A stretch of DNA of 64,000 bases, from the NCBI RefSeq assembly GCF_004138485.1, contig NZ_RYEV01000003.1, positions 186,001 through 250,000 on the forward strand, read 5' to 3'. The notes below the pieces were generated by a model, which saw only the letters and a list, made by a program, of their open reading frames with translations, ran no database searches and was not told the origin of the DNA. Below are positions 4,334-62,052 of this stretch, in pieces. The position numbers and the translations under genes are program-made. The DNA comes from Peristeroidobacter soli (GTDB taxonomy: Bacteria > Pseudomonadota > Gammaproteobacteria > Steroidobacterales > Steroidobacteraceae). The first letter of the stretch is position 1. Each line of letters opens with the position of its first letter.

Positions 4334-4334
4334 A

Positions 4335-4598: not shown

Positions 4599-4600
4599 CC

Positions 4601-37660: not shown

Positions 37661-38136
37661 CCAGCCGGTTGATGTGGGTCCTGTCCCTGATCCTCAGCGC
37701 AGTGCTGCTGGCGGCAACGCCCGCGCGCGCGGCTCAGACGGGTGGCGCGGGCGTGAGCTGGCAGGAGCTGTCTCCCGAGCAGCAGAAGTTGTTGGCCAAG
37801 TTCGAATCGCGCTGGGCCGATTTGCCACTGGCGCGCCAGCAGTCGCTGGCCAAGGGGTCGCAGCGCTGGCTGAGCATGCCGCCGGAACAGCGGCAGCAGG
37901 CCAAACAGCGGTTTCAGCGCTGGCAGTCTCTGGATGTTCAGCAGCGGCGGGAGATGCGCCGCATGTTCAATCAGTTCAAGAAACTGCCGCCGGAGGAACA
38001 GGCGCGCATCCGAGACAATTTCCGGCGCTTCAAAGATCTGCCGCCTGAACAGCGGCAGCAGCTCCGCAAGCAGTTTCAGCAGCTCACGCCGGAGCAGCGT
38101 CAGCGCCTGAAGGAGCGCCTGCGCAAGCAACCATGA
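37657..38136 (+). CDS. DUF3106 family exported protein
   Basis: This 159-residue exported protein has a signal peptide (LMWVLSLILSAVLLAATPARA) and a very basic, Gln/Arg-rich helical body made of repeats of the type LPPEQRQQLRKQFQQ. The repeats suggest a CpxP/Spy-like long helical periplasmic binder, but no function is proven. Its last 53 bp overlap the end of the convergent phosphopantetheinyl transferase gene. Confidence 0.78.
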   Translation: MTSRLMWVLSLILSAVLLAATPARAAQTGGAGVSWQELSPEQQKLLAKFESRWADLPLARQQSLAKGSQRWLSMPPEQRQQAKQRFQRWQSLDVQQRREMRRMFNQFKKLPPEEQARIRDNFRRFKDLPPEQRQQLRKQFQQLTPEQRQRLKERLRKQP

Positions 38137-38764
38137 GCGGCCAGTCCGCGCGCTGCTTCGGTGGCCACTCCCACGTGTTCAGCTGCAAGGCCTCGTTCCC
38201 GCCGATCCGCGCGACGGCGATGACGATCTCCGGCCGCGGCTGAAACACGGCCGCGCTCCAGCCCGCATCCGTTGGCACGCGGCCGCGCCACTCGCGGTCC
38301 TCCATCCAAAAAATGCAATGGCGAAGCGCATCGACCAAGCCCAGCTGCAGCGCCTTCGCGAACGATTCCTTCAACGTCCACAGCGTATAGAACAGCGCTT
38401 GCTGTGATTCAGGTGCCGCGGACTCGAGCGCGCGCACCTCGCGTTCATCGAACGCAAAGCGCGCGAGTCGGAGCACATCACGCGGTCGATTGATTTCCAG
38501 ATCGACGCCGATGCGCGATCCATCAGGCGCAATCAACAGCGCCGCATGCTCCGCGCTATGGCTCAAGCTGTGCGCGGCCGAGCCAACCTCGGCCATCGCA
38601 AGTAGCGCGCGACTGACCTCGAAATCCGCGCGCCGTCGCGACCCGCGAGAGTCAGCGAGCCGCGCGCGGTCGTCCTCGGACAGCGTCAATGGATCGAAAT
38701 GTGCGCGCGCGGTTGGAAATCCCAGCCAGAGCGTCAGACGAGTGACCGCCGCTGCACGATTCAT
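38084..38764 (-). CDS. 4'-phosphopantetheinyl transferase (Sfp/AcpT type)
   Basis: This enzyme would install the phosphopantetheine arm on the two ACPs of the aryl polyene cluster. The 226-residue product has the Sfp-family motifs GVDLE (IGVDLEINRPRDV) and WTLKESFAKA, with ARFAFDEREV between. The start is ATG 38764 (MNRAAAVTRLTLWLG); the frame is open further and an ATG at 38806 is also possible. It is divergent from the acyltransferase gene and marks the left edge of the cluster. Confidence 0.88.
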   Translation of the reverse strand: MNRAAAVTRLTLWLGFPTARAHFDPLTLSEDDRARLADSRGSRRRADFEVSRALLAMAEVGSAAHSLSHSAEHAALLIAPDGSRIGVDLEINRPRDVLRLARFAFDEREVRALESAAPESQQALFYTLWTLKESFAKALQLGLVDALRHCIFWMEDREWRGRVPTDAGWSAAVFQPRPEIVIAVARIGGNEALQLNTWEWPPKQRADWPLMVACAGAPSGADAAPA

Positions 38765-38831
38765 GCTGAAGGGATTGGCCGATAGCGCATGTGGGTTGCC
38801 GTGCATGACCAGGGCATCATAATTCCTCCCC

Positions 38832-39656
38832 ATGAACGCCGAACCGCAACTCGCCGCCGCCGCCGACGACGCCACCGAAGGCCGTCGGGACTGTTGGTAT
38901 TGGCGGTTGTTCATGACGGGATTCAGCTTTTCCCTGTTCGGCCTGGGCGCGCTACTGGTAGGCGCGGTCTGGCTGCCGATCGTCAAGCTCCTGCCGGCCT
39001 CGCGTGCGACCAAGCGCAATCGTGCGCGCGCAGCCATGAGTGGGGCGTTGAGGTTCTTCATCTGGGTCATGCATCGGGGCGGCGTGCTGACCTATGAGGT
39101 CCACGGCCGGGAACGCCTCGGTCGATTCGGGCAGATGGTCGTGGCCAACCACCCGACACTGATCGATGTGGTCTTTCTCCTGGCATTCATTCCCACCGCG
39201 GGTTGCGTGGTCAAGCAGGGGCTGTGGCGCAACCCGTTGACGCGCTGGGCGGTGACGATGGCGGAATTCATTCCCAACGACCAGACCGCGGGCATGATCG
39301 AAGGCGCCGCCAGTGCCTTGCGCGACCGGCAATCGTTGATTTTCTTCCCTGAAGGGACACGAACCCGGCCGAATGAGCCCATGGTGTTTCACCGCGGCGC
39401 GGCCAATGTCGCCTTACGCGCGGCGACCGAGCTCACGCCCGTCTATATCCGCTGTCAGCCGACCACGCTGACCAAATCCGAGCCGTGGTACCGGATTCCG
39501 GCCCGGCGGCCCCATTTCAGCCTGGTGGTCGGCGAAGACCTGGACTTAAGTCCCTACCGGAACGCGCCGTTACCGCTAGCATCACGGGCCTTGAACGAGG
39601 CCATGCATCGGCATTTTCAGCAGGCATTGGCGGTGCGCCGAGCCCCGCAGGCGTAA
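38832..39656 (+). CDS. PlsC-type lysophospholipid acyltransferase (ApeD-like)
   Basis: This 274-residue membrane-associated acyltransferase has one hydrophobic segment at about 30-55, the HX4D catalytic motif NHPTLID and the FFPEGTRTRP substrate motif. In aryl polyene clusters such an enzyme attaches an acyl group to the lipid anchor. It is the first plus-strand gene of the cluster, 139 bp before the first ACP. Confidence 0.86.
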   Translation: MNAEPQLAAAADDATEGRRDCWYWRLFMTGFSFSLFGLGALLVGAVWLPIVKLLPASRATKRNRARAAMSGALRFFIWVMHRGGVLTYEVHGRERLGRFGQMVVANHPTLIDVVFLLAFIPTAGCVVKQGLWRNPLTRWAVTMAEFIPNDQTAGMIEGAASALRDRQSLIFFPEGTRTRPNEPMVFHRGAANVALRAATELTPVYIRCQPTTLTKSEPWYRIPARRPHFSLVVGEDLDLSPYRNAPLPLASRALNEAMHRHFQQALAVRRAPQA

Positions 39657-39795
39657 GACCGTCCGACAGCCCGCGCGGCTGTACGGTGTGTGTGCCCCGA
39701 ATTAAACTGCGCGCCGAGTTCACGGACCGGTGAAGCGCGCGCAGACGTGCTCGAGACACCGAGCCGCAGGCCACCGATCCCCAACAGAGCACTTC

Positions 39796-40044
39796 ATGCA
39801 GTCGCAAGATCAAATCCTCGAACGTATCCGCCAGACGCTGGTCGAGCTGTTCGAGCTCGAGTCGGCCCGGATCACGCCCGAGGCGCGCCTGTACGAGGAC
39901 CTGGAGATCGACAGCATCGACGTGGTGGACCTGATGGATGAAGTTCAGAAGCACACCGGGCGTAAGGTCACCCCCGAGGACTTCCGTTCGGTGCGCACGG
40001 TCAAGGATCTGGCGGCGGTCGTGCAGCGACTGCTGAATGCCTGA
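39796..40044 (+). CDS. Acyl carrier protein 1 of the aryl polyene cluster
   Basis: This 82-residue ACP has the phosphopantetheine-attachment serine in EIDSIDVVDLMDEV and acidic helices typical of type II ACPs. The ATG at 39796 gives a standard-length ACP; an upstream in-frame extension is rich in Arg/His and unlike any ACP. A second ACP is encoded at 47.0 kb. In E. coli-type APE pathways two ACPs (ApeE, ApeF) share loading and extension; I cannot say which role this one has. Confidence 0.9.
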   Translation: MQSQDQILERIRQTLVELFELESARITPEARLYEDLEIDSIDVVDLMDEVQKHTGRKVTPEDFRSVRTVKDLAAVVQRLLNA

Positions 40045-40069
40045 CGCGCCTCGCGGTTGAGATCGAGCC

Positions 40070-40879
40070 ATGCTTTCTCCGGCCAAGTTCAACGCCAAAT
40101 TCGCCGTATGCGTGGTCGTGCCCGTGTACAACCACGAGCATGCGATCGGCACCGTCGTCAGCAGACTGCGCGAGCAGGGGCTGCCCGTGATCCTGGTCGA
40201 CGATGGCTGCAGCCCCGCGTGCGCCAGGGTGCTGGATGAGCTGAGCGAATTGCCCGAAGTCACGTTGCTGCGTCATGAGGTCAATCGCGGCAAAGGCGTG
40301 GCGGTCATCACCGGTTTCCGTGGCGCTGCCAAGCTCGGCTTCACCCATGCCATTCAGGTCGATGCCGACGGTCAGCACACGCTGAGCGATGCTCGTCGAT
40401 TCGTCGAAGCCGCGCGCGAAGCGCCCGACGCAGTGATCTGCGGCCGCCCGGTGTTCGACGCCAGCATCCCGAAGGCGCGCTACTACGGTCGTTATCTCAC
40501 GCACGGCATGGTCTGGCTGCAGACGCTGTCGTTCGACATCGTCGATTCGATGTGCGGTTTCCGTCTGTATCCGCTCGAGACCACGCTGGCACTGGCGGAC
40601 TCTCAACACATCGGTCCGCGCATGGATTTCGATTCGGAAATCATCGTGCGGTTGCATTGGCGCCAGGTGCCGATGCGCTGGATCGAGACGCGCGTGTCCT
40701 ATCCCATCGACGGCGTGTCCCATTTCCGCATGTTCCTGGACAACGTGCGCATGACCTGGCTGCACATCCGCATGACGCTCGGCATGATGATCCGCTTGCC
40801 GGTGTTGCTGTGGCGAAAGATCGCGCGGCCCAAGCCCGCGGCCGGGGTGCAGGAACGGGAGCGCGATGCGAATGCTTGA
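40070..40879 (+). CDS. GT2 family glycosyltransferase
   Basis: This 269-residue GT-A-fold transferase has VVPVYNHEHAI, LVDDG, the DxD-type motif VDADGQHT and a C-terminal amphipathic region (IRMTLGMMIRLPVLLWRKI) for membrane contact. In E. coli-type APE clusters the homologous domain is fused to an acyltransferase (ApeJ); here the two are separate genes, the acyltransferase lying at 54.7-55.7 kb. It would glycosylate or build the polar part of the pigment lipid. Confidence 0.86.
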   Translation: MLSPAKFNAKFAVCVVVPVYNHEHAIGTVVSRLREQGLPVILVDDGCSPACARVLDELSELPEVTLLRHEVNRGKGVAVITGFRGAAKLGFTHAIQVDADGQHTLSDARRFVEAAREAPDAVICGRPVFDASIPKARYYGRYLTHGMVWLQTLSFDIVDSMCGFRLYPLETTLALADSQHIGPRMDFDSEIIVRLHWRQVPMRWIETRVSYPIDGVSHFRMFLDNVRMTWLHIRMTLGMMIRLPVLLWRKIARPKPAAGVQERERDANA

Positions 40880-40884
40880 CGCTC

Positions 40885-41340
40885 ATGCGCCCTGACATGC
40901 GAAAAGAGGGCGCGATCAGCGCAAGCATCGACGTGACCGTGGCCTTCCACGACATCGATATCATCGGTGTCATGTGGCACGGCCACTATCTGAAGTATCT
41001 GGAAACCGCGCGCTGGGCATTGATGGACCAGCTCGACTTCGGCTACGACACCATGGCGGCGTCCGGCTACGCCTGGCCCATCGTGGAAATGCACGTCAAG
41101 TATCTGCACGCCGCGCGCATGGGCGAGCGATTGAATGTGCGCGCTTCGCTGGTCGAGTGGGAAAATCGGATCACGATGAACTATCTGGTGACGCGCGTCG
41201 GGGATCGGGAACGGGTGGCGCGCGGCAAAAGTGTGCAGGTCGCGGTGGACGCCAGGACTCACGCTCTGCAGTTCGAGACGCCGGAGCCGCTGCTCGCCCG
41301 GGTGCGTCGGACATTGAAGAGGAATGAAATTGGAACGTGA
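40885..41340 (+). CDS. Hotdog-fold acyl thioesterase (4HBT/YbgC type, ApeK-like)
   Basis: This 151-residue hotdog thioesterase has the pattern FHDIDIIGVMWHGHYLKYLETAR, with the conserved Asp/His-Tyr of the YbgC group. It would release or proofread acyl-ACP intermediates. The ATG at 40885 lies six bases after the glycosyltransferase stop; 17 bp of its end overlap the next gene. Confidence 0.85.
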   Translation: MRPDMRKEGAISASIDVTVAFHDIDIIGVMWHGHYLKYLETARWALMDQLDFGYDTMAASGYAWPIVEMHVKYLHAARMGERLNVRASLVEWENRITMNYLVTRVGDRERVARGKSVQVAVDARTHALQFETPEPLLARVRRTLKRNEIGT

Positions 41341-42550
41341 CGTGATCGTCATTGGCGCCGGCCCGTCCGGCGCAATCAGCTCGGCTCTGTTGAAGAAGCG
41401 TGGCTGGAACGTGCTGGTGCTCGAGGGGCAGCGCTTCCCGCGTTTCTCCATCGGCGAGAGTCTGCTGACGCATTGCCTGGATTTCGTCGACGAGGCCGGC
41501 ATGATGCCGGCGGTGGAGCGCGCCGGCTTCCAGTTCAAGAATGGCGCGGCCTTCGTGCGCGGCGACGAATACGGCGATTTCGACTTCAGCGACAAATTCA
41601 CCAAGGGGCGCGACTCCACGTTTCAAGTGCAGCGCGCGGCCTTCGACAAAGTGCTCGCCGACGAAGCGGAGCGGCAAGGCGTCGAGATCCGGTATGAAAC
41701 TCGCGTGACTGCCGTCGACAACAGCGGGGACGAGCCTCGCGTGCGCGCGGTCGATGCAAAAGGTGTCGAATACGAAGTCGAGGGCAAGTTCCTGCTCGAC
41801 GCCAGCGGTTTTGGCCGGGTGTTGCCCAAGCTGCTCGATCTGGAAACACCCTCGAAGTTTCCGGTGCGCAATGCCGTGTTCACGCACGTGGCCGATGGCG
41901 CCGCGCCCGGTGCTTTCGATCGCAACAAGATCCAGGTCATCGTTCATCCGCAGCACCGCGATGTGTGGTTCTGGCTGATTCCGTTTGCGAATGGCCGCTG
42001 CTCGCTGGGCTGTGTCGCGCGCAAGGAGTTTTTCGACAGGTACCCGGCGCAGCTGGAAGAGCGTTTGAAAAAGCTGGCGAGTGAAGAGCCGTTTCTCACT
42101 CGCGTGCTCGCGAATGCAACCTGGGATACGCCGGTGCGCGAGCTGACCGGCTACGCTGCCAATGTGAAGTCGATGCACGGCAAAGGTTTCGCGCTGCTCG
42201 GCAATGCCGCCGAGTTTCTGGATCCGGTGTTCTCCTCGGGCGTCACCATCGCGATGCGTTCAGCCAGCATGGCCGCGGCATTGCTGGATCGACAGTTGCG
42301 CGGCGAGACCGTCGATTGGAGCAACGATTTCGAGCTCCCGCTGCGCAAGGGTGTGGACACGTTCCGCGCCTACGTGAAAGCGTGGTACGACGGCCGCTTC
42401 CAGGACATCATGTTTGCGAAAACCCAGCCGCCGGGCATCCGCGCCATGATCTGTTCCATCCTGGCCGGGTATGCGTGGGATGAAACCAATCCATTCGTGG
42501 CCGAACCCGAGCGTCGTCTCGACATGGTTGCTAAGCTCTGCGCGGTATGA
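41324..42550 (+). CDS. FAD-dependent oxidoreductase, flavin-halogenase-like (first of two)
   Basis: This 408-residue flavoprotein has the dinucleotide motif GAGPSGAISSALL, the GESLL segment, the halogenase-type lysine at residue 72 in GFQFKNGAAF, and WFWLIP near residue 215, which fits the WxWxIP motif of flavin-dependent halogenases. FAD binding is completed by GNAAEFLDPVFSSGVTIA. Xanthomonadin clusters contain related proteins and their pigments are brominated. Halogenation here is a hypothesis; geranylgeranyl-reductase-like redox chemistry is the alternative. AGAGGA lies seven bases before the ATG. Confidence 0.78.
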   Translation: MKLERDVIVIGAGPSGAISSALLKKRGWNVLVLEGQRFPRFSIGESLLTHCLDFVDEAGMMPAVERAGFQFKNGAAFVRGDEYGDFDFSDKFTKGRDSTFQVQRAAFDKVLADEAERQGVEIRYETRVTAVDNSGDEPRVRAVDAKGVEYEVEGKFLLDASGFGRVLPKLLDLETPSKFPVRNAVFTHVADGAAPGAFDRNKIQVIVHPQHRDVWFWLIPFANGRCSLGCVARKEFFDRYPAQLEERLKKLASEEPFLTRVLANATWDTPVRELTGYAANVKSMHGKGFALLGNAAEFLDPVFSSGVTIAMRSASMAAALLDRQLRGETVDWSNDFELPLRKGVDTFRAYVKAWYDGRFQDIMFAKTQPPGIRAMICSILAGYAWDETNPFVAEPERRLDMVAKLCAV

Positions 42551-43275
42551 GCGACACGATTCTGGTCACCGGCTCCAGCCGAGGCATCGGCCGTGCCATC
42601 GCGCTTCGCGCGGCGGCGGACGGCTTCGATGTTGTCGTGCATTGCCGGTCACGGCGTGATGAAGCCGACGCGGTCGCGGGCCAGATCAAAGCGCTGGGCC
42701 GTCAGTCGCGAGTGTTGCAGTTCGATGTCTCCGATCGCGCCGTCTGCGCCGAAGCCCTGGCCGCCGATATGAGCGCCAACGGCGCTTACTACGGCGTCGT
42801 GCATAACGCGGGCATTCATTCGGACGCCGCCTTTCCGGCCATGACGGGTGAGCAATGGGATGGCGTCATTCGGACCAATCTGGACGCGTTCTACAACGTG
42901 CTCCAGCCTGTGATCATGCCGATGGTGCGTCGACGCGCGCCGGGTCGCATCGTCACATTGGCCTCCGTTTCGGGCGTCGTCGGCAATCGCGGTCAGGTGA
43001 ACTACAGTGCCGCGAAGGCCGGGGTCATCGGGGCGACCAAGGCGCTGGCGGTCGAGCTGGCGAAACGAAACATCACGGTCAATTGCGTCGCGCCCGGGCT
43101 GATCGGCACCGAAATGGTCGACGAGAACGTGCCCACGGAAGAAATTCTCAAGGCGATTCCCGCGCAGCGCGCTGGAACCGCAGAAGAAGTCGCCGCGGCC
43201 GTAACGTTTCTTTTGTCGCGTGACGCTTCGTACATCACGCGTCAGGTGCTCTCGGTCAACGGAGGACTGTGCTGA
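42547..43275 (+). CDS. 3-oxoacyl-ACP reductase (FabG/ApeQ-like)
   Basis: This is the ketoreductase of the polyene cycle, a 242-residue SDR with TGSSRGIGRAIA, the NAG motif (HNAGIHSD), catalytic Ser-Tyr-Lys (SVSG, YSAAK) and the C-terminal TRQVLSVNGGL. The ATG overlaps the preceding flavoprotein stop (ATGA), and its own TGA overlaps the next ATG. It reduces the 3-ketoacyl-ACP made by the ketosynthases before dehydration. Confidence 0.9.
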   Translation: MSDTILVTGSSRGIGRAIALRAAADGFDVVVHCRSRRDEADAVAGQIKALGRQSRVLQFDVSDRAVCAEALAADMSANGAYYGVVHNAGIHSDAAFPAMTGEQWDGVIRTNLDAFYNVLQPVIMPMVRRRAPGRIVTLASVSGVVGNRGQVNYSAAKAGVIGATKALAVELAKRNITVNCVAPGLIGTEMVDENVPTEEILKAIPAQRAGTAEEVAAAVTFLLSRDASYITRQVLSVNGGLC

Positions 43276-44498
43276 TGCGCCGTGTAGTCGTCACAGGCGT
43301 TGGCGGATTATGCGGGCTCGGCACGAGCTGGTCCGAGATTCATGCAGGGCTGCGTGCGCGCAAGAACGCGATTCGCACCATGCACGAGTGGGATCGCCAC
43401 AAGGATATGAACACCCGGTTGGGCGGCCCCATCGAATTCGCTCCGCCGGCGCATTGGACTCGCAAACAGCTGCGAAGCATGGGTCGAGTGTCGCAACTCG
43501 CGGTGCGTGCCGCCGAGCTGGCGATTGCGGATGCTGGATTGACCGGCTCTCCCATCATTGCCAGTGGCGCGACGGGGGTTTCTTCCGGCTCCTCCACCGG
43601 CAGCACCGCGGACATCTCGGCCTTCGCGGCCATGATTCTGCACGCCGACTCGAGCGGGCTGAACGCGAACTCGTACGTGCGCATGATGCCGCACACGACC
43701 GCGGCCAACGTCGGGATCTTCTTTGGCGCGAAGGGCCGGATCATTCCCACCTCGAGCGCCTGCACGTCGGGCAGCCAGGGAATCGGTTACGCGTACGAGG
43801 CCATCAAGTTCGGCCGGCAGGATGTGATGATTGCTGGCGGTGCCGAGGAACTGTGTCCCACCGAAGCGATGGCATTCGATACGTTGTATGCAACGAGCCG
43901 TCGCAACGATCAGCCGCATACGACGCCGCGTCCTTACGACCGCGATCGCGATGGCCTGGTGGTCGGTGAAGGCGGCGCGATGCTGATCCTCGAAGAGTTG
44001 GAACACGCGCAGCGGCGCGGTGCTCGCATTCATGCGGAACTGGTTGGTTTCGGGAGCAACTCCGACGGCGTGCACGTCACCAAGCCGGAGGAATCGACGA
44101 TGCGCGTGGTGATGGAGCTGGCGCTGCAGGACGCCGGCATTTCACCCGATGTCATTGGCTACGTGAACGGTCACGGCACGGCGACCGAGCATGGCGATAT
44201 TGCCGAAACACGCGCGACCTCCGCTTTGTTCGGCAAGCGCATGCCGCTCAGCTCGCAGAAGAGTTACCTGGGCCACACGCTCGGCGCCTGTGGTGCGCTG
44301 GAAGCCTGGTTCAGCATCGAGATGATGAATGCCGGCTGGTTCGCGCCGACCTTGAATCTGGACAACATCGATCCGCGCTGTGGCGAGCTCGAATACATCA
44401 CCGGCGAGGGGCGCGGCATCAGCACCGAGTACGTGATGAACAACAACTTCGCGTTCGGGGGCGTGAACACTTCGATGGTGTTCAAACGCTGGCAGTGA
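43275..44498 (+). CDS. Beta-ketoacyl-ACP synthase (KS, ApeR-like)
   Basis: This 407-residue condensing enzyme has a complete Cys-His-His triad: SSACTSGSQG, NGHGTATEHGD, KSYLGHTLGACG. FabF-like overall (EGGAMLILEELEHA). GGAGG lies nine bases before ATG 43275. It is encoded with the ketoreductase, as in other APE clusters, and may work alone on an early or side chain, while the KS/CLF pair at 47.8-49.7 kb extends the polyene. Confidence 0.9.
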   Translation: MRRVVVTGVGGLCGLGTSWSEIHAGLRARKNAIRTMHEWDRHKDMNTRLGGPIEFAPPAHWTRKQLRSMGRVSQLAVRAAELAIADAGLTGSPIIASGATGVSSGSSTGSTADISAFAAMILHADSSGLNANSYVRMMPHTTAANVGIFFGAKGRIIPTSSACTSGSQGIGYAYEAIKFGRQDVMIAGGAEELCPTEAMAFDTLYATSRRNDQPHTTPRPYDRDRDGLVVGEGGAMLILEELEHAQRRGARIHAELVGFGSNSDGVHVTKPEESTMRVVMELALQDAGISPDVIGYVNGHGTATEHGDIAETRATSALFGKRMPLSSQKSYLGHTLGACGALEAWFSIEMMNAGWFAPTLNLDNIDPRCGELEYITGEGRGISTEYVMNNNFAFGGVNTSMVFKRWQ

Positions 44499-46870: not shown

Positions 46871-47018
46871 CACGTCGTCAAAATCAGTGGTTGGTTCGGG
46901 GGTTGGAAAACGTGCGCGCCATTCGAAGCGCGCGCGGGCCGGATGATACACTTCGCGCCCCGCGGTTCGCCGCTCCAACGTCGCAAATCAGCCTTTCGTA
47001 CAAGGGCCTGTTTCGTTC

Positions 47019-47294: not shown

Positions 47295-47331
47295 TTGATT
47301 TGGCAATCGTTTGACAAAAAGGGAGAGAACC

Positions 47332-47751: not shown

Positions 47752-47764
47752 CGACGCAGGACCG

Positions 47765-48949: not shown

Positions 48950-49740
48950 CGCTCCGGGTCGCGATCGAAGGCGTTTCTTTCTGGGCCTCGCGTCTGCCGG
49001 GTTGGGAAATCGCACGCGCCGTGATTCGTGGCGATCAAGCGCCGCCTGAAGCGCCGAGTCCTCGTCCATCACCGACGCTGCTGGCACCGACAGAACGGCG
49101 GCGCGCTCCTGACACGGTTGCCGTCGCGCTGGAAGTCGCGGTTCGTGCGTGCGAAGCGGCCGGGCGTAAGCCGTCGGAGTTGCCGTCGGTGTTCGCATCG
49201 ACCCACGGCGATCTCGCCATCAGCGATTACATGTGCTCGACACTGGCGACCACGCCCACGTTGATCTCGCCGGTCAAGTTTCATAACTCGGTTCACAACG
49301 CCGCGGCGGGCTATTGGAGCATCGGCACCGGCAGCCTCGCGCCGTACACCGCGATCAGCGCTTACGAATCCACCTTCGGCGAGGGCTTGGTCGAAGCGGC
49401 GACGCAGGTCGTCTGCGAGCAGCGACCGGTGTTGTATGTGGCGTTCGATATCGAAGCGAAGGGCGCGCTCTCCAGCATGGCGCCGAGTCGCGGTTTGCTC
49501 GGCGCGGCTTTGGTGCTGGCGCCAGTGAGCTCGTCGCAGCAGCAGCGCAGTTTGATTCTCACGACCGAACCGGTCGATCAATGCCAGCCGACTCTGGCGC
49601 GTTCCGCGGCAGCCCCGTTGGTTGCCGACAATGCGCTCGCGCCGTGTCTGCCCTTCTTCGAAGTCCTGGCGAGCTCGAGCCCTCGCACGCTCTGTCTGGC
49701 GCTGAGCCGGCAGCTGGCGCTGAATGTCCAAGTGAACTGA
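48946..49740 (+). CDS. Ketosynthase-like chain-length factor (ApeC-like)
   Basis: This 264-residue N-terminal ketosynthase-like protein is much shorter than a full KS (about 400). The position of the catalytic cysteine has no Cys (KFHNSVHNAAAGYWSIGTGS), so it cannot condense by itself. Such proteins pair with a KS to set chain length. It overlaps the KS gene by four bases and is followed after four bases by the second flavoprotein. Confidence 0.83.
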   Translation: MTLRVAIEGVSFWASRLPGWEIARAVIRGDQAPPEAPSPRPSPTLLAPTERRRAPDTVAVALEVAVRACEAAGRKPSELPSVFASTHGDLAISDYMCSTLATTPTLISPVKFHNSVHNAAAGYWSIGTGSLAPYTAISAYESTFGEGLVEAATQVVCEQRPVLYVAFDIEAKGALSSMAPSRGLLGAALVLAPVSSSQQQRSLILTTEPVDQCQPTLARSAAAPLVADNALAPCLPFFEVLASSSPRTLCLALSRQLALNVQVN

Positions 49741-49744
49741 AAAA

Positions 49745-51364
49745 ATGAATGCATCGACCGAAGTCCCCAAGGTGGATGTCACCCTGCTCGGGGGCGGCCT
49801 GGCGGGACTGACGCTCGCCATTCAATTGCGCCGGCAGTTTCCTTCGCTGTCGCTGCGGATCATCGAGCGCCGCCGTCATCCCGTGCCGCCGGCCGCGCAC
49901 AAGGTCGGCGAGTCGTCGGTGGAAATCGGCGCGCATTATTTCGACACGGTGCTCGGTCTCAAGGAGCATCTGATGAGCGCGCAGCTGAAGAAATTCGGCT
50001 TCCGCTTTTTCTTTTCCGAGGGTCGCGAGGACCTGGATGGCGTCACCGAGCTGGGCGCGAGCCGTTATCTCTCGACGCCGAGCTATCAACTCGACCGCGG
50101 CGTGTTCGAAAACTATCTGGGCGAGCACGTGCGCGAGCTGGGCGTCGAGTTCATCGATGGCGCGGTCGTGCGCGGTTTCGACGTCGGCACACAAGGCGCC
50201 GAGCATGTCGTGCGCTATGAAGTCGATGGCGAGCAACACGAAGTTCGGTCGCGCTGGCTGATCGATGCTTCCGGTCGCGCAGGCTTGCTCAAGCGCAAGC
50301 TCGGCCTGCAGCAGGACAATGCTCACAACGCCAACGCCATCTGGTTCCGCATCGGCACGAAGATCGATGTGGACGAGTGGTCGTCGGATTCGACCTGGCT
50401 GAATCGCTGCGATCCGCCGTATCGCTGGCTGTCCACCAATCATCTGTGCGGCGCAGGCTATTGGGCGTGGTTGATCCCGCTGTCGTCGGGCTCGCACTCC
50501 GTGGGCATCGTCTGCGACGCGGTCGCTCATCCGCTCGAGACCATGAACACGTTCGAGAAATCGCTCGAATGGTTCCGTGTGCATCAGCCGCGGCTCGCGC
50601 GGGAACTCGAGGGTAAGCAGCACCTGCTGCAGGATTTCTGTTTCCTGCGCAATTTTTCCTATGGCTGCAAGCAAGTGTTCTCGGGCGATCGCTGGGCACT
50701 GACCGGCGAAGCGGGCGTGTTCCTCGATCCGTTCTACTCGCCCGGCAGCGACTTCATCGGCATCAGCAACACGTACATCACCGATCTGATCGCCCGCGAT
50801 CTGCAGGGCGAGCTGATCAATGGTCGGTCGCACGTGTATCAGCAACTGTATTTCTCGTTCTACGAGAGCACGCTGTCGCTGTACACGGATCAGTACGCCA
50901 TGTTCGGCGATCCGGAAGTCATGCCGGTGAAAGTGATCTGGGACTACACGTATTACTGGGGCGTGCTGTGTCAGCTGTTCTTCCAGCGTCGCCTGACCGA
51001 TCTGGCCAACCTGAGCCGGCTCTCGGATCACTTGAATCATTCGCGCGCCTTGAACGTGGCCATGCAGAACTTCATGCGCGAATGGTCGAAGCTCAGCGCG
51101 CGTCGCAACGACGCCGTGTTGCTGGATCAGGCCTCGCTGCCCTGGTTCGCGGAGTTGAATCGCGGCTTGCGTGACGATCTCGATGAGGAAGGGTTCCGCG
51201 CCCGGGTGATCGAGTACACCGGGTTGTTGAACTCGCTGGCCGCTGAAATCATCGAGAAGGCATGCGGCGAGCATCCGTCGCTCGACGCCAGCGCAGCGCG
51301 CAAGCTGTTGAGCGCCGTCCCGGCGACGGTATCGGAATCGCTGCTGTTTACGAAGGCAGCTTGA
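49745..51364 (+). CDS. FAD-dependent oxidoreductase, flavin-halogenase-like (second of two)
   Basis: This 539-residue flavoprotein has LLGGGLAGLTLAIQL, KVGESSVEIGAHYF and WAWLIP near residue 240, again the halogenase-type WxWxIP motif. However, the place of the catalytic lysine (GFxxK in the first protein) reads GFRFF, so Lys is replaced by Phe89. It may be an oxidase or a non-halogenating partner rather than a working halogenase. The long C-terminal region (about 380-539) is helical. Its last 17 bp overlap the convergent dehydratase gene. Confidence 0.78.
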   Translation: MNASTEVPKVDVTLLGGGLAGLTLAIQLRRQFPSLSLRIIERRRHPVPPAAHKVGESSVEIGAHYFDTVLGLKEHLMSAQLKKFGFRFFFSEGREDLDGVTELGASRYLSTPSYQLDRGVFENYLGEHVRELGVEFIDGAVVRGFDVGTQGAEHVVRYEVDGEQHEVRSRWLIDASGRAGLLKRKLGLQQDNAHNANAIWFRIGTKIDVDEWSSDSTWLNRCDPPYRWLSTNHLCGAGYWAWLIPLSSGSHSVGIVCDAVAHPLETMNTFEKSLEWFRVHQPRLARELEGKQHLLQDFCFLRNFSYGCKQVFSGDRWALTGEAGVFLDPFYSPGSDFIGISNTYITDLIARDLQGELINGRSHVYQQLYFSFYESTLSLYTDQYAMFGDPEVMPVKVIWDYTYYWGVLCQLFFQRRLTDLANLSRLSDHLNHSRALNVAMQNFMREWSKLSARRNDAVLLDQASLPWFAELNRGLRDDLDEEGFRARVIEYTGLLNSLAAEIIEKACGEHPSLDASAARKLLSAVPATVSESLLFTKAA

Positions 51365-51773
51365 GCAGCACGGCGGCGCGACCTTCCGCCGCCACTGCGC
51401 CGTTGTGAGTGATTTTGAAGCTGTACTGCTGGCTGGATTCCGCCGACTGCAGACAGACCGCCTCGACGCGTAGCGCGCCAGCCAGCCCGTCGATGTAATC
51501 GCAGGTGAACGTCACCGATCTCAGCGCCACCAGCATGCCCGGTCGCGCTTGCCTGGGCGCAGCCCTCAACGCGCCGTGCACTGCCATCGCCTGCGCTCCG
51601 TATTCGCACAGGTGAAGCGCGCGCAGCTTGCCATCCACACGCAGCGGGTTTTCGGGATCGCGATGGGAGGCGGTTTCCAAAACGATGCGCGTGTCGTCCC
51701 ACTCGACGATGTGCTCCCACAGGCACATGCCGCCTTGGTGAGGAATCAGCGCTGCGATGTCGTCACGTGCCAT
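51348..51773 (-). CDS. Hotdog 3-hydroxyacyl-ACP dehydratase (ApeP-like)
   Basis: This 141-residue hotdog protein starts MARDDIAALIPHQGGMCLWEHIVEWD, the pattern of ApeP-type dehydratases (IPHRGPM-like). It would dehydrate the 3-hydroxyacyl-ACP to the polyene, together with the FabZ-like gene at 55.7 kb. The ATG at 51773 lies four bases after the exporter stop. It is the last gene of the minus-strand export/tailoring operon. Confidence 0.83.
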   Translation of the reverse strand: MARDDIAALIPHQGGMCLWEHIVEWDDTRIVLETASHRDPENPLRVDGKLRALHLCEYGAQAMAVHGALRAAPRQARPGMLVALRSVTFTCDYIDGLAGALRVEAVCLQSAESSQQYSFKITHNGAVAAEGRAAVLLKLPS

Positions 51774-51777
51774 GAGT

Positions 51778-54168
51778 TTACGCGGGCCGGTCCTGCGCAT
51801 CCCTGCGCCCCCGGCATTCGGGCATCCTGCCCAGCACCGGTCGGGTGAGCAGGAGGGCGAGCACGAAATTGGAGATCACGCCAATCGATACCGTCAAGCC
51901 GAGCGCTCGGAGCACCGGCAGTGACGACAGCGCGAGCAGCGCGAACACCATCAGCGTCGAGATCGAGCACACGAGCAACGCGTGCAGAGTCCGCCGCTGT
52001 TCCATGGGATCGTCGGCCGCGTGCTCGAAGAACAAGGCGTAGTCGAGGCCGAGACCGGCGGCGAGGATCAGCGCGATCAGATGAAACAACGTCATCGATA
52101 CGCCCGCGGCCTGCAGGATGCCGATGATGAGCAACGTGGTCAGCGCCATCGGCGCGAGCACGCGATAGACGCGCGAGGCCTGACGCAACGAGAACATCAC
52201 GACGCCGGCGAGCAGCACGGCCGCAATCGCCAGGCTCCACAGGATCTTGATGCGCTGATGGGTCACGAGCGTTTCGGACGCGTCCTTCGTGTCCAGCAAC
52301 GTCACGCCTTCCCCGGCGCCGGCGGCGAAACGTTCCAGCGCCGCGACGTCTGCAACGCCGCTGAATGTCACGAGCGCGGTTGTGCGCTGAGTGGTCTTAT
52401 CCTTCTCCCTGGCGTGCTGAGTCAGCAGCATTTCGACGCTCACGCCGAGCGGTGAGTCGCGCAACCGATCGACGGTCAGCAAGCGCAGATGCCGTGCCTT
52501 TTCCACGTCTTCGAGGAACGGTTCGAACACATCCGGTCGGAATGGTGTGTCTTTCACCGCCGCATCGATATCGGCGCGCAGCGTCGCCGGCTCGGGCAGG
52601 CGAGCTTGTCGTTGACGCTGCTTCTCCGCCGTCGGCACGTAGCGAGCGGCGTGGTCATAGCCGGTGATCGCGCCATCGGCGACCAGCTTCTGCAGCGGCT
52701 CGTCCAGCTGTTCCAGTTTCTTCAGCGCATATTCGGTGTCGGCGGCGTTGATGACCAGCAGATAGCGCACATCCGGCGTACCCAGCTCAGTGCGCAGCGC
52801 TTGATCCTGGATCAACAGTTCCTTGGGCAGCGGCGTGAGCTTGCTCAGATCGCTTTCCCACATGGGCTGTGGCGCGAGCACCATGGCGCCGATGGATAGA
52901 ACGACGGCGACCACGCCGGCCCAGAGCGGGCGTGGCAGGTTTTCCATTCGTTGCCACAGTTTGCCCAGCCACACCGAGTCGCCGAAGTCGCGACCCTTCG
53001 TAGCCATCAGCGGCGGCAAGCCAAATCGGGTCGTCAGGCCGGCGACGGCCAGGCCCGCGACCGTGAAGCACGCGAGCTGTGCCAGCCCGATGACTCCGGA
53101 GAGCAGGAAGGTGACATAGGCGATGCACGTGCTGGCGACGCCCGTGGCAAGCGTCGGCCACAGCGCGCGAGCGGCTTCATCGGGCGATCGATTGGCATGC
53201 GCGTGGCTGAGCAAATGAATCGGATAGTCCTGCGCGACGCCGATCAGCGTGAAGCCGAATGCCAGCGTGATGCCATGAACCTCGCCGAATAGCGCACTCA
53301 CGGCGGCGAGCCCCGCCAGGCCTGCGCTGGCGAGCGGCAATGAGCTCAATATGACCGCGCCGATGCTTCTATAAGCGACCAGCAACAAGATGATCATGCC
53401 CACCGTCGCGCCCGCGCCGAGCAATGTCGCTTCGCCGCGGGTCCGCTCTTCCATCATTACGGAGAATTTGCCGGCGCCGCTGAAAGTCAGCGTCACGCCG
53501 TCGTCACGTTTCAGGCGCTCGCCTTCCGCGTTCAATTGCTCGACCGCAAGACGTTGCTGATCGGGATCGAAAGCGGCAGCGCGCGTTTGAGCAATCAGCA
53601 GCGCCCGCTTGCCTTCGCGATCGAACCAGACATCGAACAACCGGTTGGGCTCCTGCATCGGCTGCCAACGCTGCAGGACCTTCAGCAACTCGAGCGTCGG
53701 ATCGCGCGGCAGCCACGGTTCCAGGAAGGCGCCCGCCGGTGACGCCAGATCGCGCGCGCGTTCCTGCAGCTCCGAGTGCAGATACTTTTCATCGAGCGGC
53801 CGCTCGTCCAACGTCGTCGACAGCAAGTATCGGTACGCCAGCAACTCGTCCGGGACGCTGTCGAGAGAAATATCGCCGTTGGTGACGATGCGGAAGTACG
53901 GGCTCGATTGCAGAGTCTCGACCAGCGTGCGCGACGCGTCGGCAAGCTGCTCCGGCTCCGCGCCTTCCAATGCGATCACCATCACGCGCGATGCGGGGCC
54001 CTCGCCGATTTCTTCCAACAACAGCTGTTGTTCGGGCGTCGTCGGGCTGGGAAGAAACAAACGCAGATCGGTGCTGACTTGCAGCTGCCGTTGCACGAAC
54101 CAGGTCAGACCGGCCAGCAGCACCAGCCAGATGAACAGGATCAATAAAGCCGAGCGGGTGAGCTTCAT
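51778..54168 (-). CDS. MMPL/RND-type lipid exporter (ApeM-like)
   Basis: This 796-residue inner-membrane transporter has about 12 segments in two halves, each with a periplasmic loop. Helix 1 is LLILFIWLVLLAGLTWF; the SSD-like core has AFGFTLIGVAQDYPIHLLSH, and the second half has ILAAGLGLDYALFFEHA. It is expected to pass the finished aryl polyene lipid to the periplasm. ATG 54168 overlaps the LolA gene stop (ATGA). The last 25 or so residues (GRMPECRGRRDAQDRPA) come from a 54-bp dispersed repeat rather than MMPL sequence. Confidence 0.87.
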   Translation of the reverse strand: MKLTRSALLILFIWLVLLAGLTWFVQRQLQVSTDLRLFLPSPTTPEQQLLLEEIGEGPASRVMVIALEGAEPEQLADASRTLVETLQSSPYFRIVTNGDISLDSVPDELLAYRYLLSTTLDERPLDEKYLHSELQERARDLASPAGAFLEPWLPRDPTLELLKVLQRWQPMQEPNRLFDVWFDREGKRALLIAQTRAAAFDPDQQRLAVEQLNAEGERLKRDDGVTLTFSGAGKFSVMMEERTRGEATLLGAGATVGMIILLLVAYRSIGAVILSSLPLASAGLAGLAAVSALFGEVHGITLAFGFTLIGVAQDYPIHLLSHAHANRSPDEAARALWPTLATGVASTCIAYVTFLLSGVIGLAQLACFTVAGLAVAGLTTRFGLPPLMATKGRDFGDSVWLGKLWQRMENLPRPLWAGVVAVVLSIGAMVLAPQPMWESDLSKLTPLPKELLIQDQALRTELGTPDVRYLLVINAADTEYALKKLEQLDEPLQKLVADGAITGYDHAARYVPTAEKQRQRQARLPEPATLRADIDAAVKDTPFRPDVFEPFLEDVEKARHLRLLTVDRLRDSPLGVSVEMLLTQHAREKDKTTQRTTALVTFSGVADVAALERFAAGAGEGVTLLDTKDASETLVTHQRIKILWSLAIAAVLLAGVVMFSLRQASRVYRVLAPMALTTLLIIGILQAAGVSMTLFHLIALILAAGLGLDYALFFEHAADDPMEQRRTLHALLVCSISTLMVFALLALSSLPVLRALGLTVSIGVISNFVLALLLTRPVLGRMPECRGRRDAQDRPA
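51787..51840 (-). repeat. 54-bp dispersed repeat, copy 2
   Basis: This is the reverse-complement copy of 26747-26800, with 51 of 54 positions identical and the same CCGGT...ACCGG ends. It is read through by the exporter gene and supplies its last codons before the TAA. Confidence 0.85.
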
Positions 54169-54812
54169 GCACCACAGCGCCGCTGCAAGGCGACCAAGGT
54201 CACATCGGTGGCAACGGGCTCCGCCGCGTTCGCGCCCAGAAGCAACACACTGGAGGCGCCATCGGCGGTCGTCATCGAAAAGCAGCGCGGATCGCTCTGG
54301 TGGCCGTTCACTTCGATCCGCTGCAAGCGGCGGCGAGCTTTGGTATCGGTCGGCGTGAGCTTCAGGGTCCACGCATCGTCATTGCCACTCATTTCGACGT
54401 CGAATGTCTTGCGCAGCGACGCGGCGTCGCCCGAAAGCATGGCCGAGAATCCCGACAACAGCCCCCGCAGCTCCGGCGCATGTTTCAAAGCGAAGCTGCG
54501 CGGCTTCTCGCCTTCGCGTTCCACTTTGACGGACTCGCCGCGAATGGAGGTGTGCTCGCGATAAGGCGTCGTGACCCGTCGATCCAGGCTCTCCGGTCCG
54601 GAATATCCCAGGTCGCCCGACACGATCAGCGGCGCCCGCAGCAGCTTCGAGAAGCGGACTTCGGTGAAGGAGACCGTGGCGGGCGCGGGCTTGGCCAGGC
54701 GGCCGATCAGCGTATCGGCGCTTTCAGTCTGGCCGGCGCTCCACGCCGTCAGGGGCGCGAGCAGCGCCAGAATGGTCAGGGCCAGGGATCGAATTGAGGT
54801 GCCAGAAATCAT
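54165..54812 (-). CDS. LolA-like outer-membrane lipid carrier (ApeL-like)
   Basis: This 215-residue exported protein has a signal peptide (SIRSLALTILALLAPLTAWSA) and a LolA-like beta-barrel body (VSFTEVRFSKLLRAPLIVSGDLGYSGPESLDRRV, VKVEREGEKPR). LolA-like proteins in APE clusters are thought to ferry the pigment lipid from the MMPL exporter across the periplasm. The start is ATG 54812; its first 89 bp overlap the upstream acyltransferase gene in another frame. Confidence 0.83.
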   Translation of the reverse strand: MISGTSIRSLALTILALLAPLTAWSAGQTESADTLIGRLAKPAPATVSFTEVRFSKLLRAPLIVSGDLGYSGPESLDRRVTTPYREHTSIRGESVKVEREGEKPRSFALKHAPELRGLLSGFSAMLSGDAASLRKTFDVEMSGNDDAWTLKLTPTDTKARRRLQRIEVNGHQSDPRCFSMTTADGASSVLLLGANAAEPVATDVTLVALQRRCGA

Positions 54813-55689
54813 AGAAGTTGAACCAATTGTACGGCGCAGCGCGCGTGTAATGGGCCAGCCGGTCCGCATACCGTTGAATGATGGCATTGAGACTCGCCTC
54901 GCGGTTGGAGCGTTCCACGCGCACCGTGTCGGCGAACGCTTCGAAGTGCAGGTCGTAGCGATTGCCGCCGCGGTACAGGCCGAAGCACAGGACCACCGGC
55001 ACCTTGAGTGCCGCCGCGATCTGCCACGGCCCGGTCGGGAACGGCGCGGGCTCGCCGAGGAAATTCGCGAGCGACACTTGATTGCCCGGCCGGGCGCGAT
55101 CGACCAGCAAGGTGACCAGAGCGCCTTCGTCCACCGCTTCCTTGATCGCCAGCGCGGTGACCGTGCCGTCCTGGCGGGCATTGATGATGGAGCGCGCCAG
55201 CTCCGGATTGAACGCGTGCAGGAAGTTGGTCAGCGCCGCATTGTGTTCGACGTCCAGCACGACGCGCACTTTCACGTCTTTGCGCACCTCGCCCAGCACG
55301 CGCAAGGCATCGAAGCTGCCCAGATGCGAGCCGAAGATCAGCACGCCTTGTTTCTTGGCGAACTGGGCACGCAGGACGTCAAGGCCATGCACGCGGACAT
55401 CGAAACGTTTGAAACTTTCGAGCAGCAGGAACAGGCGATCGAGGATGACGGAGGCGAAACAGTGGAACTGCTTCGCGACATCTTTCAGCGTGGCCTTGCG
55501 TCCCAGCACCCGCTGCAGATAGTCGCGTGAGGCGCGTCGTTCCGGCGCGCGCTTCAGCAGAAAGAACGCGGTGATGGGAAAGAGCACCAGGCGCGCGGCC
55601 GAGCGCCCGCACAGCCGCGCGAACAGGCTGATCAGTCGATAACCGAAGACCGAGCCGGCTTCGGGACGGTCGAGCCATTGCTGTTTCAC
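54724..55689 (-). CDS. LpxL-type lipid acyltransferase (ApeJ C-domain-like)
   Basis: This 321-residue protein resembles lipid A lauroyl acyltransferases: an N-terminal hydrophobic anchor, the HX4D motif GSHLGSFD, LLVDRARPGNQ and PAPFPTGPWQIAAALKVPVVL. The C-terminus carries NWFNFYDFW. In E. coli-type APE clusters this domain is fused behind a glycosyltransferase (ApeJ); here the GT2 is a separate gene 14 kb away on the other strand. It overlaps the dehydratase gene by 4 bp and the LolA gene by 89 bp. Confidence 0.85.
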   Translation of the reverse strand: MKQQWLDRPEAGSVFGYRLISLFARLCGRSAARLVLFPITAFFLLKRAPERRASRDYLQRVLGRKATLKDVAKQFHCFASVILDRLFLLLESFKRFDVRVHGLDVLRAQFAKKQGVLIFGSHLGSFDALRVLGEVRKDVKVRVVLDVEHNAALTNFLHAFNPELARSIINARQDGTVTALAIKEAVDEGALVTLLVDRARPGNQVSLANFLGEPAPFPTGPWQIAAALKVPVVLCFGLYRGGNRYDLHFEAFADTVRVERSNREASLNAIIQRYADRLAHYTRAAPYNWFNFYDFWHLNSIPGPDHSGAARAPDGVERRPD

Positions 55690-56012
55690 GCCGCCGGTCC
55701 GTGGTCGCCGGCGGCGATTCGAAATAATCCCTGTGCGATCGCCGAACCGTCGCGGCTGAGGGTGAAGCGCAGCTCTGCGGCGTCCAGTTTCAATTGCAGA
55801 TCCGCCGACTCCTCGGGCAGCAGCGGCGCGGTGAACTTGGCGTTGGGGAGCGCAACCACGCGCACCGGGCGCCGCAGCCAGCGCTCCGCTTCCTGCAGGA
55901 CGCAGTCGAGCAGGACGACGCCGGGCACGATCGGCTGGCCCGGAAAATGGCCGGGCAGCGACGGATGATTCGCGTCGACCCGCAGAACGGTGGCGTGGGC
56001 GAGGGGGCTCAT
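55686..56012 (-). CDS. FabZ/FabA-like 3-hydroxyacyl-ACP dehydratase (ApeI-like)
   Basis: This 108-residue hotdog protein has the dehydratase signature HPSLPGHFPGQPIVPGVVLLD, containing the catalytic His. It is the second dehydratase of the pathway, complementing the ApeP-like one. ATG 56012 is chosen over a TTG at 56021 that overlaps the preceding stop. It overlaps the acyltransferase by 4 bp. Confidence 0.86.
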   Translation of the reverse strand: MSPLAHATVLRVDANHPSLPGHFPGQPIVPGVVLLDCVLQEAERWLRRPVRVVALPNAKFTAPLLPEESADLQLKLDAAELRFTLSRDGSAIAQGLFRIAAGDHGPAA

Positions 56013-56017
56013 GTCGT

Positions 56018-56740
56018 TCAATGACGAGGGGCAGCGACGTTGCTGACCAGGCGCGGCATGGCCGCGAATACCTTCAGAAAAAAATCCAGCATGTTGCGAT
56101 AGGGCTGCCGCGGAAAGCGGTGGCTGCGGTAAGCGTACTCAATCAGGAAGAAGGCCGCGACCAGCAAATATCCGATGAGGTTGGCGAACAGCGACCACCA
56201 TTCCTCCGGCACCGTGACCGGCGGCGTGAGCCCGGCGGCCAGCAGCATGCCGCCGGGTGCGGCGAGCAGCCCCAACACCAGATTGGTCGCCGACAGGCTG
56301 ACGAAAAAGAATGTCCAGGTGGCCGTCAGCTTGCGCGCGTACTCCAGCACGTCCGGCTCGGGCTCGCCGATGCCCCCGGGGCCGGACTCCATGACCCGGA
56401 CCAGCTGTTCGATTAGCGGAACCTGTCCGGCGAGCAGCGTGCTGCCAAATACGCCCGCCATGAATCCTGGCACCAGCACCGGTGCGATATACAGCGGCAA
56501 TGTCGCGTGCGTGGAACGTGATAACCACCACAGGCCCGCGACCACCGGTGGCAGCGCCAGCCAGGCCGCGACATTGCGTCGGCCGAGGGCCGGCACCATG
56601 GGCAGGACGATCAATAGCCCCAATGCAATGGCGATCAGGGTCACGTCGTTCAAAATGACGCCGAAGTGGGCGACGAGCGGGTACGCGAGCACCAGCACGG
56701 CCCGGCCAATCGCGGTAAACACTCGGGAGTCAACTGCCAT
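56018..56740 (-). CDS. COG4648-type integral membrane protein (ApeG-like)
   Basis: This 240-residue protein has about six membrane segments (LVLAYPLVAHFG, LIAIALGLLIVLPMV, AAWLALPPVVAGLWW, FFFVSLSATNLVLGLLA, LIGYLLVAAFFLIEYAYRSHRFP), typical of the conserved APE-cluster membrane protein. Function unknown; probably part of export or lipid attachment. The frame is open to 56794, but the region before MAVDSRVF is Cys/Arg-rich and non-conserved. It is the first gene of the minus-strand operon, divergent from pntA. Confidence 0.78.
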   Translation of the reverse strand: MAVDSRVFTAIGRAVLVLAYPLVAHFGVILNDVTLIAIALGLLIVLPMVPALGRRNVAAWLALPPVVAGLWWLSRSTHATLPLYIAPVLVPGFMAGVFGSTLLAGQVPLIEQLVRVMESGPGGIGEPEPDVLEYARKLTATWTFFFVSLSATNLVLGLLAAPGGMLLAAGLTPPVTVPEEWWSLFANLIGYLLVAAFFLIEYAYRSHRFPRQPYRNMLDFFLKVFAAMPRLVSNVAAPRH

Positions 56741-61974: not shown

Positions 61975-62052
61975 AAAAGCTTTCATCTGCTGGAGACTAT
62001 GGCGGGGGAAGCGCGGACCCATAATGGTCTTTCGTAGGTTGCTCTCGCCCGC

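Follow-up and report, generated by a model that had tools for sequence, protein, structure and literature searches.

The window analysed here, a 64,000-nucleotide stretch of Peristeroidobacter soli (contig NZ_RYEV01000003.1, positions 186001–250000; genome 9.37 Mb), contains a 19-kb block of 21 genes at 38084–56722, which gene calling and Pfam/NCBIfam scans place between a DUF3106 gene and pntA. An earlier note on this DNA had read the block as an aryl polyene (APE) cluster supplied by a chorismatase, and we do find a complete type II APE pathway with a chorismatase, all core functions being present. Gene names follow those of the ape cluster (PMC8253772). Pfam was run on all 21 proteins and NCBIfam on 20 of them (the acyl carrier protein ACP1 excluded), and the Ape proteins of E. 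coli CFT073 were compared by BLASTP with E values up to 0.01. The genes are as follows.

38084..38820, minus: 4'-phosphopantetheinyl transferase (PPTase); Pfam PF01648 2.9e-13 on the longer frame 38084–39070; start codon uncertain, possible ATG at 38820
38832..39656, plus: ApeD-like lysophospholipid acyltransferase (PlsC family); PF01553 7.6e-18; 39% to E. coli ApeD
39730..40044, plus: acyl carrier protein (ACP1), ApeF-like; PF00550; 52% to ApeF
40070..40879, plus: GT2 glycosyltransferase resembling ApeJ's N-terminal half; PF00535; 49% to ApeJ 2–242
40876..41340, plus: 4HBT thioesterase, ApeK-like; PF13279 on the longer frame; 42% to ApeK
41324..42550, plus: FDH1, flavin-dependent halogenase-like; Trp_halogenase PF04820 1.1e-24; PDB halogenases; motifs WFWLIP and FLDPVFSSG
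42547..43275, plus: ketoreductase (KR), ApeQ/FabG2-like; TIGR01831 above cut-off; 58% to ApeQ
43269..44498, plus: ketosynthase (KS) KS1, ApeR-like; PRK09116 710 bits; 57% to ApeR
44495..45835, plus: AMP-forming ligase, probably for hydroxybenzoate; PF00501 5.8e-21; 26% to ApeH; nearer xanthomonadin loci
45812..46978, minus: chorismatase (XanB2/Hyg5/FkbO family); Pfam, NCBIfam, PDB, alignment; start codon uncertain
47019..47294, plus: acyl carrier protein, ApeE-like; PRK09184 137 bits; 49% to ApeE
47371..47751, plus: ApeA-like small protein, probably exported; 30% and 7.8e-15 against E. coli ApeA; without Pfam match
47765..48949, plus: KS2 ketosynthase, ApeO-like; PRK09185 509 bits; 44% to ApeO
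48946..49740, plus: chain-length-factor (CLF)-like; PF13723 3.8e-26
49745..51364, plus: FDH2, flavin-dependent halogenase-like, directly 3' of CLF; PF04820 4.5e-15; PDB halogenases; motifs WAWLIP and FLDPFYSPG
51348..51800, minus: hot-dog dehydratase, probably of the ApeP kind; 11-orthologue profile against FabA/FabZ dehydratase 6qsr_B, 3.6e-6
51778..54168, minus: MMPL/RND exporter, ApeM-like; PF03176; 25% to ApeM
54165..54812, minus: LolA-like periplasmic carrier; LolA_3 8.3e-40
54724..55689, minus: LpxL-type acyltransferase resembling ApeJ's C-terminal half; PF03279; 31% to ApeJ 249–554
55686..56021, minus: dehydratase, ApeI-like; PF22818 4.7e-7; 37% to ApeI
56018..56722, minus: ApeG (COG4648)-like membrane protein rather than a glycosyltransferase; 28% to ApeG, 1e-6

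The core APE set thus comprises two KS, a CLF-like protein, a KR, two hot-dog dehydratases, two acyl carrier proteins (ACPs), an AMP-ligase and a PPTase, and it is joined by thioesterase, PlsC-like, GT2 and LpxL-type genes, an MMPL exporter and LolA. Pfam and NCBIfam give no match for the 51.3-kb dehydratase, nor does BLASTP link it to E. coli ApeP; the structure 6qsr_B that its profile finds is presumably an ApeI:ApeP complex. The earlier note left the two flavin-halogenase-like genes unnamed, and the reading of the last gene (56018–56722) is here corrected to an ApeG-type membrane protein. The hallmarks of a xanthomonadin-type locus are found together: KS2 with the adjacent CLF and a neighbouring halogenase-like gene (47765–51364), the AMP-ligase, ACP, KR, two dehydratases, acyltransferase, LolA and MMPL exporter, and, within the cluster, a chorismatase of the XanB2/Hyg5 family. 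The cluster is collinear in six congeners (L022–L027), and chance assembly is therefore ruled out.

We consider it likely that this is a xanthomonadin-type APE cluster whose product is un-methylated and probably brominated, and whose chorismatase probably also serves ubiquinone. The basis is gene content, homology, motifs, synteny, the lack of a UbiC match and a KASIII complement in which the only match is FabH-like; from these we infer every reaction, the bromines, the lipid anchor and the ubiquinone role. The chorismatase would convert chorismate to 3-hydroxybenzoate (3-HBA), and probably 4-hydroxybenzoate (4-HBA), and the AMP-ligase would load hydroxybenzoate onto ACP. The KS/CLF pair, the KR and the two dehydratases would then extend the starter to an aryl octaene, to which FDH1 and FDH2 would probably add one bromine each. 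O-methylation would be absent, so the phenol on the ring should be left free. The thioesterase, PlsC-like, GT2 and LpxL-type enzymes would transfer the acid to a lipid. The lipid-linked pigment would travel to the outer membrane by way of LolA and the MMPL exporter, and the same chorismatase would probably give 4-HBA for ubiquinone. This agrees with the lipid-linked phenolic polyene near xanthomonadin that had been proposed, a product predicted here, as before, from the genes.

The case for bromination depends on FDH1 and FDH2. The PDB matches of both are headed by halogenases, bar one flavoprotein/dehydrogenase (3nix). The window's two proteins carry WxWxIP and FxxPxxSxG, motifs of flavin-dependent halogenases, and both motifs are found in 41 of the 42 loci matching FDH1 and 40 of the 42 matching FDH2 (two lists that overlap in many loci); the three misses are short frames of 113–237 codons. 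FDH1 is 56–57% identical to its counterpart in the type B clusters, the second cluster kind of the genus, and a halogenase sits directly after CLF in other clusters, as FDH2 does (PMC3691225). We suggest that the two are probably halogenases adding one bromine each, which makes them candidates for the two bromines of xanthomonadin; in the portions of the cited literature on which we draw, we met no separate assignment of these bromines to enzymes. It is unlikely, in our view, that the product is non-halogenated, perhaps hydroxylated, with FDH1 and FDH2 acting as flavin hydroxylases or idle. NCBIfam does link both proteins to monooxygenases and reductases as well as to the halogenase CmlS model, all below cut-off, and arcuflavin is without bromine though its locus carries arcA, annotated as a halogenase (PMC3949708); against this stand the PDB matches, the near-universal motif pair and the two bromines of a congener's pigment (PMC5979037). 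Another FDH2-like gene lies on a short contig of G008 (L131, G008:C47), a draft of about 940 contigs; it shares about 72% identity with FDH2 of the window and could be contamination.

The congener is S. cummioxidans 35Y, of the same genus group, which is reported to make a yellow xanthomonadin with a maximum at 441 nm, m/z 560 and the formula C27H28Br2O3; a cluster of 14 xanthomonadin genes was predicted for it and only 4 such genes for S. denitrificans, and the main text of that report mentions neither 'chorismat' nor 'halogenase' (PMC5979037). We compute a mass of 560.3 for this formula, which equals C23H20Br2O3 + C4H8. It is also the formula of the isobutyl ester of O-demethyl xanthomonadin I acid, if xanthomonadin I has the structure we presume for it. 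Since xanthomonadin I was itself isolated as the isobutyl ester (PMC3691225), the formula match fits a structural reading of the 35Y pigment as the isobutyl ester of demethyl xanthomonadin I acid. A demethyl dibromo formula in turn agrees with a cluster that carries two halogenase-like genes but lacks a methyltransferase, and the published pigment mass is in this way tied to a gene missing from the cluster. The present cluster is complete and belongs to a known pigment family already reported in the genus, and it is largely to be expected because a congener is reported to make xanthomonadin; the suggestion that it would be unusual is not supported, as a dibrominated pigment absorbing where expected had been published for a Steroidobacter.

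The hydroxybenzoate starter was attributed to the gene at 45812–46978 (minus strand), with the proviso that it might prove to be a bare RidA-like protein. The gene matches FkbO_Hyg5-like_N (Pfam, 1.9e-32) and, over residues 85–381, NCBIfam TIGR04444 (1.4e-52), where its 179 bits fall below the 325-bit cut-off, as do the scores in all 60 relatives. Its PDB matches are 5ag3 (3e-34, aligned residues 98–381), deposited as a putative pteridine-dependent dioxygenase and presumably Hyg5, and FkbO itself, 4bps (3.5e-31, residues 113–381). The family and PDB matches therefore exclude a bare RidA protein, and the N-domain together with the catalytic Glu position rules out a RidA-only reading. An FkbO type is disfavoured, as FkbO has Ala at the positions of the window's Gly291 and Cys370. 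For the alignment, 93 matching loci less four short frames, plus the window, gave 90 rows (87 distinct, three duplicates), numbered here by Hyg5 positions (renumbered from PMC7170507); no XanB2 of assayed activity was among them. The Hyg5 G240, C327 and catalytic E334 positions are kept in 90 of 90 rows, whereas the G173 position is Ala in 78 (mostly Xanthomonadales), Cys in 7, Gly in 3 and Val in 2. The CH-II (Hyg5) signature, a Gly/Gly/Cys set with described residue roles (PMC7170507), is incomplete in the window, where G240 and C327 are kept but G173 is replaced by Ala; the window thus differs from CH-II at one residue and resembles most Xanthomonadales rows. In six loci, mostly Stenotrophomonas (L063, L081, L090, L094, L100, L109), the chorismatase adjoins an E. 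coli-type APE cluster and has Cys at the G173 position; L090 is labelled Bacillus subtilis and is probably a mislabelled or contaminated record.

The family, PDB and residue matches support a chorismatase-supplied hydroxybenzoate starter. This way of starting is not the novelty it had been taken for, being already described in Xanthomonas, Lysobacter (PMC3691225) and Azoarcus (PMC3949708). The product of a chorismatase cannot be predicted from an alignment, and XanB2-type enzymes yield both 3-HBA and 4-HBA (PMC3949708). One may then ask whether the starter is 4-HBA, as in the E. coli type, made by the chorismatase for pigment and ubiquinone alike. The E. coli-type character of the genes at 38.1–44.5 kb and the dual product of XanB2-type enzymes speak for it, but the ligase and KS2/CLF are nearer xanthomonadin loci, whose known members use 3-HBA, and the window shares Ala at the G173 position with the mostly Xanthomonadales majority; we regard a 4-HBA starter as improbable. 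In Lysobacter, 3-HBA restores pigment to a mutant of the XanB2 homologue ORF5 (PMC3691225).

Neither a methyltransferase nor an ammonia-lyase is recognised among the Pfam and NCBIfam matches of the cluster proteins, as the earlier note had it, apart from one chance-level match (Erm41 against the 55.7-kb dehydratase, 13.7 bits where the cut-off is 350, E 0.043). Three of the 21 proteins lack a Pfam match, which leaves room for a methyltransferase or lyase of an unfamiliar type. A dedicated ammonia-lyase elsewhere in the genome is excluded: PF00221 has a single match, on another contig, and this gene lies between genes read by eye as hutI and hutU and is therefore HutH. Esterification of the acid to a dialkylresorcinol, as in arcuflavin or flexirubin, instead of a glycerolipid or sugar lipid, has a precedent in hybrids with chorismatase clusters (PMC3949708), but it is very improbable here, the genome's one PF08541 match being FabH-like with no DarB candidate (DarA was not searched). 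DarB is a KASIII relative, and a dialkylresorcinol hybrid is disfavoured by this KASIII (PF08541) result.

Gene-by-gene comparison (best bit score divided by self score) suggests that the cluster is a mosaic, nearest to E. coli-type clusters at 38.1–44.5 kb and to xanthomonadin clusters at 44.5–56.7 kb. All eight genes of the first part find better-scoring matches in type B clusters than in xanthomonadin loci, and all 13 of the second score highest against Xanthomonadales xanthomonadin loci when these are set against type B, G022, E. coli and Stenotrophomonas APE loci. Type B clusters have no match for the chorismatase or the small exported protein; the 51.3-kb dehydratase has a 42–43% type B match just beyond the compared stretches, against 59% in xanthomonadin loci. 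On three short contigs of metagenome-assembled genomes from outside the genus (L038, L040, L052), kept as a separate group, chorismatase, ligase and KS1 stand side by side, with the KR in two; these give the top non-genus scores for KR, KS1, ligase and chorismatase, and may represent the same mosaic. The named loci span at most 10 kb either side of the chorismatase. When nine whole genomes were searched with KS1, two proved to encode ApeR-like proteins (58–59%): Stenotrophomonas ISL-67, a carrier of an E. coli-type cluster, and Rhodanobacter L36, where the protein and the xanthomonadin locus are on separate contigs. The other seven reach at most 40%. Among the eight genomes with a xanthomonadin locus searched in this way, only Rhodanobacter L36 has an ApeR-type KS.

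Within the genus the cluster varies. Of the collinear loci, L022, L023, L025 and L027 have no match for the small exported protein, and in L026 the 51.3-kb dehydratase is unmatched next to a run of N; the reduced cluster of L027 (G012) has no match for PPTase, PlsC, ACP1, thioesterase or KS1, a block that looks dispensable, at least at this site. CLF has one match each in 12 of the 14 genus genomes. The chorismatase is found in ten: the window's, those of L022–L027, G006 (in pieces on short contigs, L130), G009 and G013. The last two have no CLF or FDH2 match, and their DUF3106–pntA interval holds the chorismatase as its only cluster-gene match. In G002 and G007, priA–pntA is occupied by an E. 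coli-type cluster with FDH1 and, adjoining pntA, an Rv2949c-like chorismate lyase (PF01947, about 1e-20), with no chorismatase match in the genome and no sigma or DUF3106 gene match at the site. Different congeners thus hold at priA–pntA a chorismatase cluster, an Rv2949c-like-lyase cluster, or the chorismatase alone. Rv2949c-like lyases lie at L122:16838-17371 and L124:15756-16364, by an E. coli-type APE cluster with a flavin-halogenase-like gene at priA–pntA.

UbiC was found in none of the 14 genus genomes, the window's included, and a UbiA-family match in all 14 (above cut-off in 13). The window's genome has no match for the Rv2949c-like lyase; G010 has the chorismatase plus a PF01947 gene elsewhere, and G003 and G004, both fragmented, have no UbiC, chorismatase or Rv2949c-like lyase match. 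PF01947 is matched in nine genomes, in four of which the match is their UbiC gene. Among the 60 relatives, UbiC occurs in one of the 16 that have a chorismatase and in 24 of the 44 that lack one (Fisher p 0.0008; kinship is ignored and we lean on the figure little); a 37-codon fragment in G017 was left out of this count and a weak 63-bit match in G039 included. Given the lack of a UbiC match in this genome, the chorismatase probably also supplies 4-HBA for ubiquinone, as chorismatase supplies both xanthomonadin and ubiquinone in Xanthomonas (PMC5069965, PMC4682078). Of the 90 chorismatase rows, 43 were placed in a maximum-likelihood tree, from which only starred branches were used. In it the nine genus rows form one group (99/98), and the two chorismatase-only rows lie among the cluster-borne ones in different starred groups, L028 with L027 (100/95) and L029 with six others (99/94). 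Passing between the cluster-borne and chorismatase-only states takes two changes; in the label test all 500 of 500 shuffles were as low, and the two labels show no clustering beyond shuffled ones. This fits two losses of the pigment genes with retention of the chorismatase; a possible alternative history is that pigment genes were gained repeatedly beside a chorismatase already in place.

Several points weigh against the reading of this cluster as a source of un-methylated, brominated xanthomonadin with a chorismatase that also feeds ubiquinone. FAD proteins of the FDH kind can be hydroxylases, and Azoarcus pairs a halogenase gene with a non-brominated pigment (PMC3949708). The pigment is reported from the congener 35Y and none from this strain, the 35Y cluster lies outside our comparison, and the report gives O3 in its text and O2 in its table (PMC5979037). 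The absence of a methyltransferase applies to the cluster proteins, no genome-wide methyltransferase search having been made. The chorismatase has a slight lead in xanthomonadin loci (0.30) over Stenotrophomonas APE loci (0.28). Finally, 17 of the 60 relatives (two in the genus) match none of UbiC, chorismatase and Rv2949c-like lyase, and a further 4-HBA route or missed genes must therefore exist.

Bringing these strands together, we tentatively propose, with the prospects of the whole somewhat short of even, that priA–pntA holds a hydroxybenzoate gene serving both ubiquinone and APE; that its enzyme, either the chorismatase or the unrelated Rv2949c-like chorismate lyase, has been exchanged along with the pigment genes; that the chorismatase outlasts those genes; and that the window's cluster is a fusion of E. 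coli-type and xanthomonadin parts making an un-methylated dibromo aryl octaene, each bromine set by a different flavin halogenase. What is new is the mosaic make-up, the exchange at a single site and the lack of a UbiC match in 14 genus genomes, with a probable double duty of the chorismatase. An isolated report of Steroidobacter xanthomonadin becomes a gene-level picture for the genus, and congeners with the pigment cluster, the swapped cluster or the chorismatase alone are named in which a shared hydroxybenzoate source of ubiquinone and pigment can be tested.

Elsewhere in the window, 443–5413 encodes a Rieske ring hydroxylase with a homotrimeric (PF11723) domain, a LigB-type ring-opening dioxygenase, two hydrolases and a ferredoxin-type reductase; the block looks like aromatic breakdown genes, presumably of the carbazole type. 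A 759-codon open frame at 61705–63984 (minus strand) has no Pfam match at 1e-5, was not chosen by the coding-potential caller and is perhaps no gene. Repeats of 20 nt or more amount to a few chance-like two-copy families, and promoter-like sites (2 against 2.7 shuffled) and terminator-like sites (19 against 14.4 shuffled, sd 4.5) are near shuffled levels.

Among known systems, arcuflavin of Azoarcus sp. BH72 shares with the window a XanB2-type chorismatase (ArcB), ligase, KS/CLF, halogenase gene, LolA and exporter (PMC3949708); its two unlinked loci, methyltransferase and dialkylresorcinol partner are its own, the last two not found in the window's strain as far as searched. S. cummioxidans 35Y, of the same genus group, shares the xanthomonadin type by its 441-nm dibrominated pigment and its 14 predicted genes. 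The ammonia-lyase contrast drawn earlier does not suit E. coli CFT073, where none is annotated and UbiC-made 4-HBA is predicted as starter (PMC8253772). Of the 18 proteins of apeA–R, 14 have a BLASTP match in the window's cluster; ApeL and ApeP have likely counterparts through LolA_3 (Pfam) and the 6qsr_B profile only, and the ApeB methyltransferase and ApeN have no match. The window thus has homologues of ApeR, ApeQ, ApeK, ApeD and ApeF but neither ApeB nor a fused ApeJ, and adds a chorismatase, a PPTase and two halogenase-like genes. The separate GT2 and LpxL-type genes do match the two halves of ApeJ, as had been observed, but they are equally separate in type B clusters, xanthomonadin loci and the three Stenotrophomonas loci checked, and so do not set this cluster apart. 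Nearest to the genes at 44.5–56.7 kb is the xanthomonadin cluster (Xanthomonas, and loci of Pseudoxanthomonas, Lysobacter, Luteimonas, Rhodanobacter and Dyella), with which the window has in common the chorismatase, ligase, ACP, KS/CLF, two dehydratases, LpxL-type enzyme, LolA, MMPL and halogenase. In 41 named xanthomonadin loci with an exporter (flanks of at most 10 kb), FDH1-like genes occur in 18, FDH2-like in 8 and both in 5, and KS1, GT2 or thioesterase exceed threshold in none. Beyond the xanthomonadin clusters, the window has an ApeR-type KS, an ApeQ-type KR, ApeK, ApeD, ApeF, a PPTase and its own FDH1.

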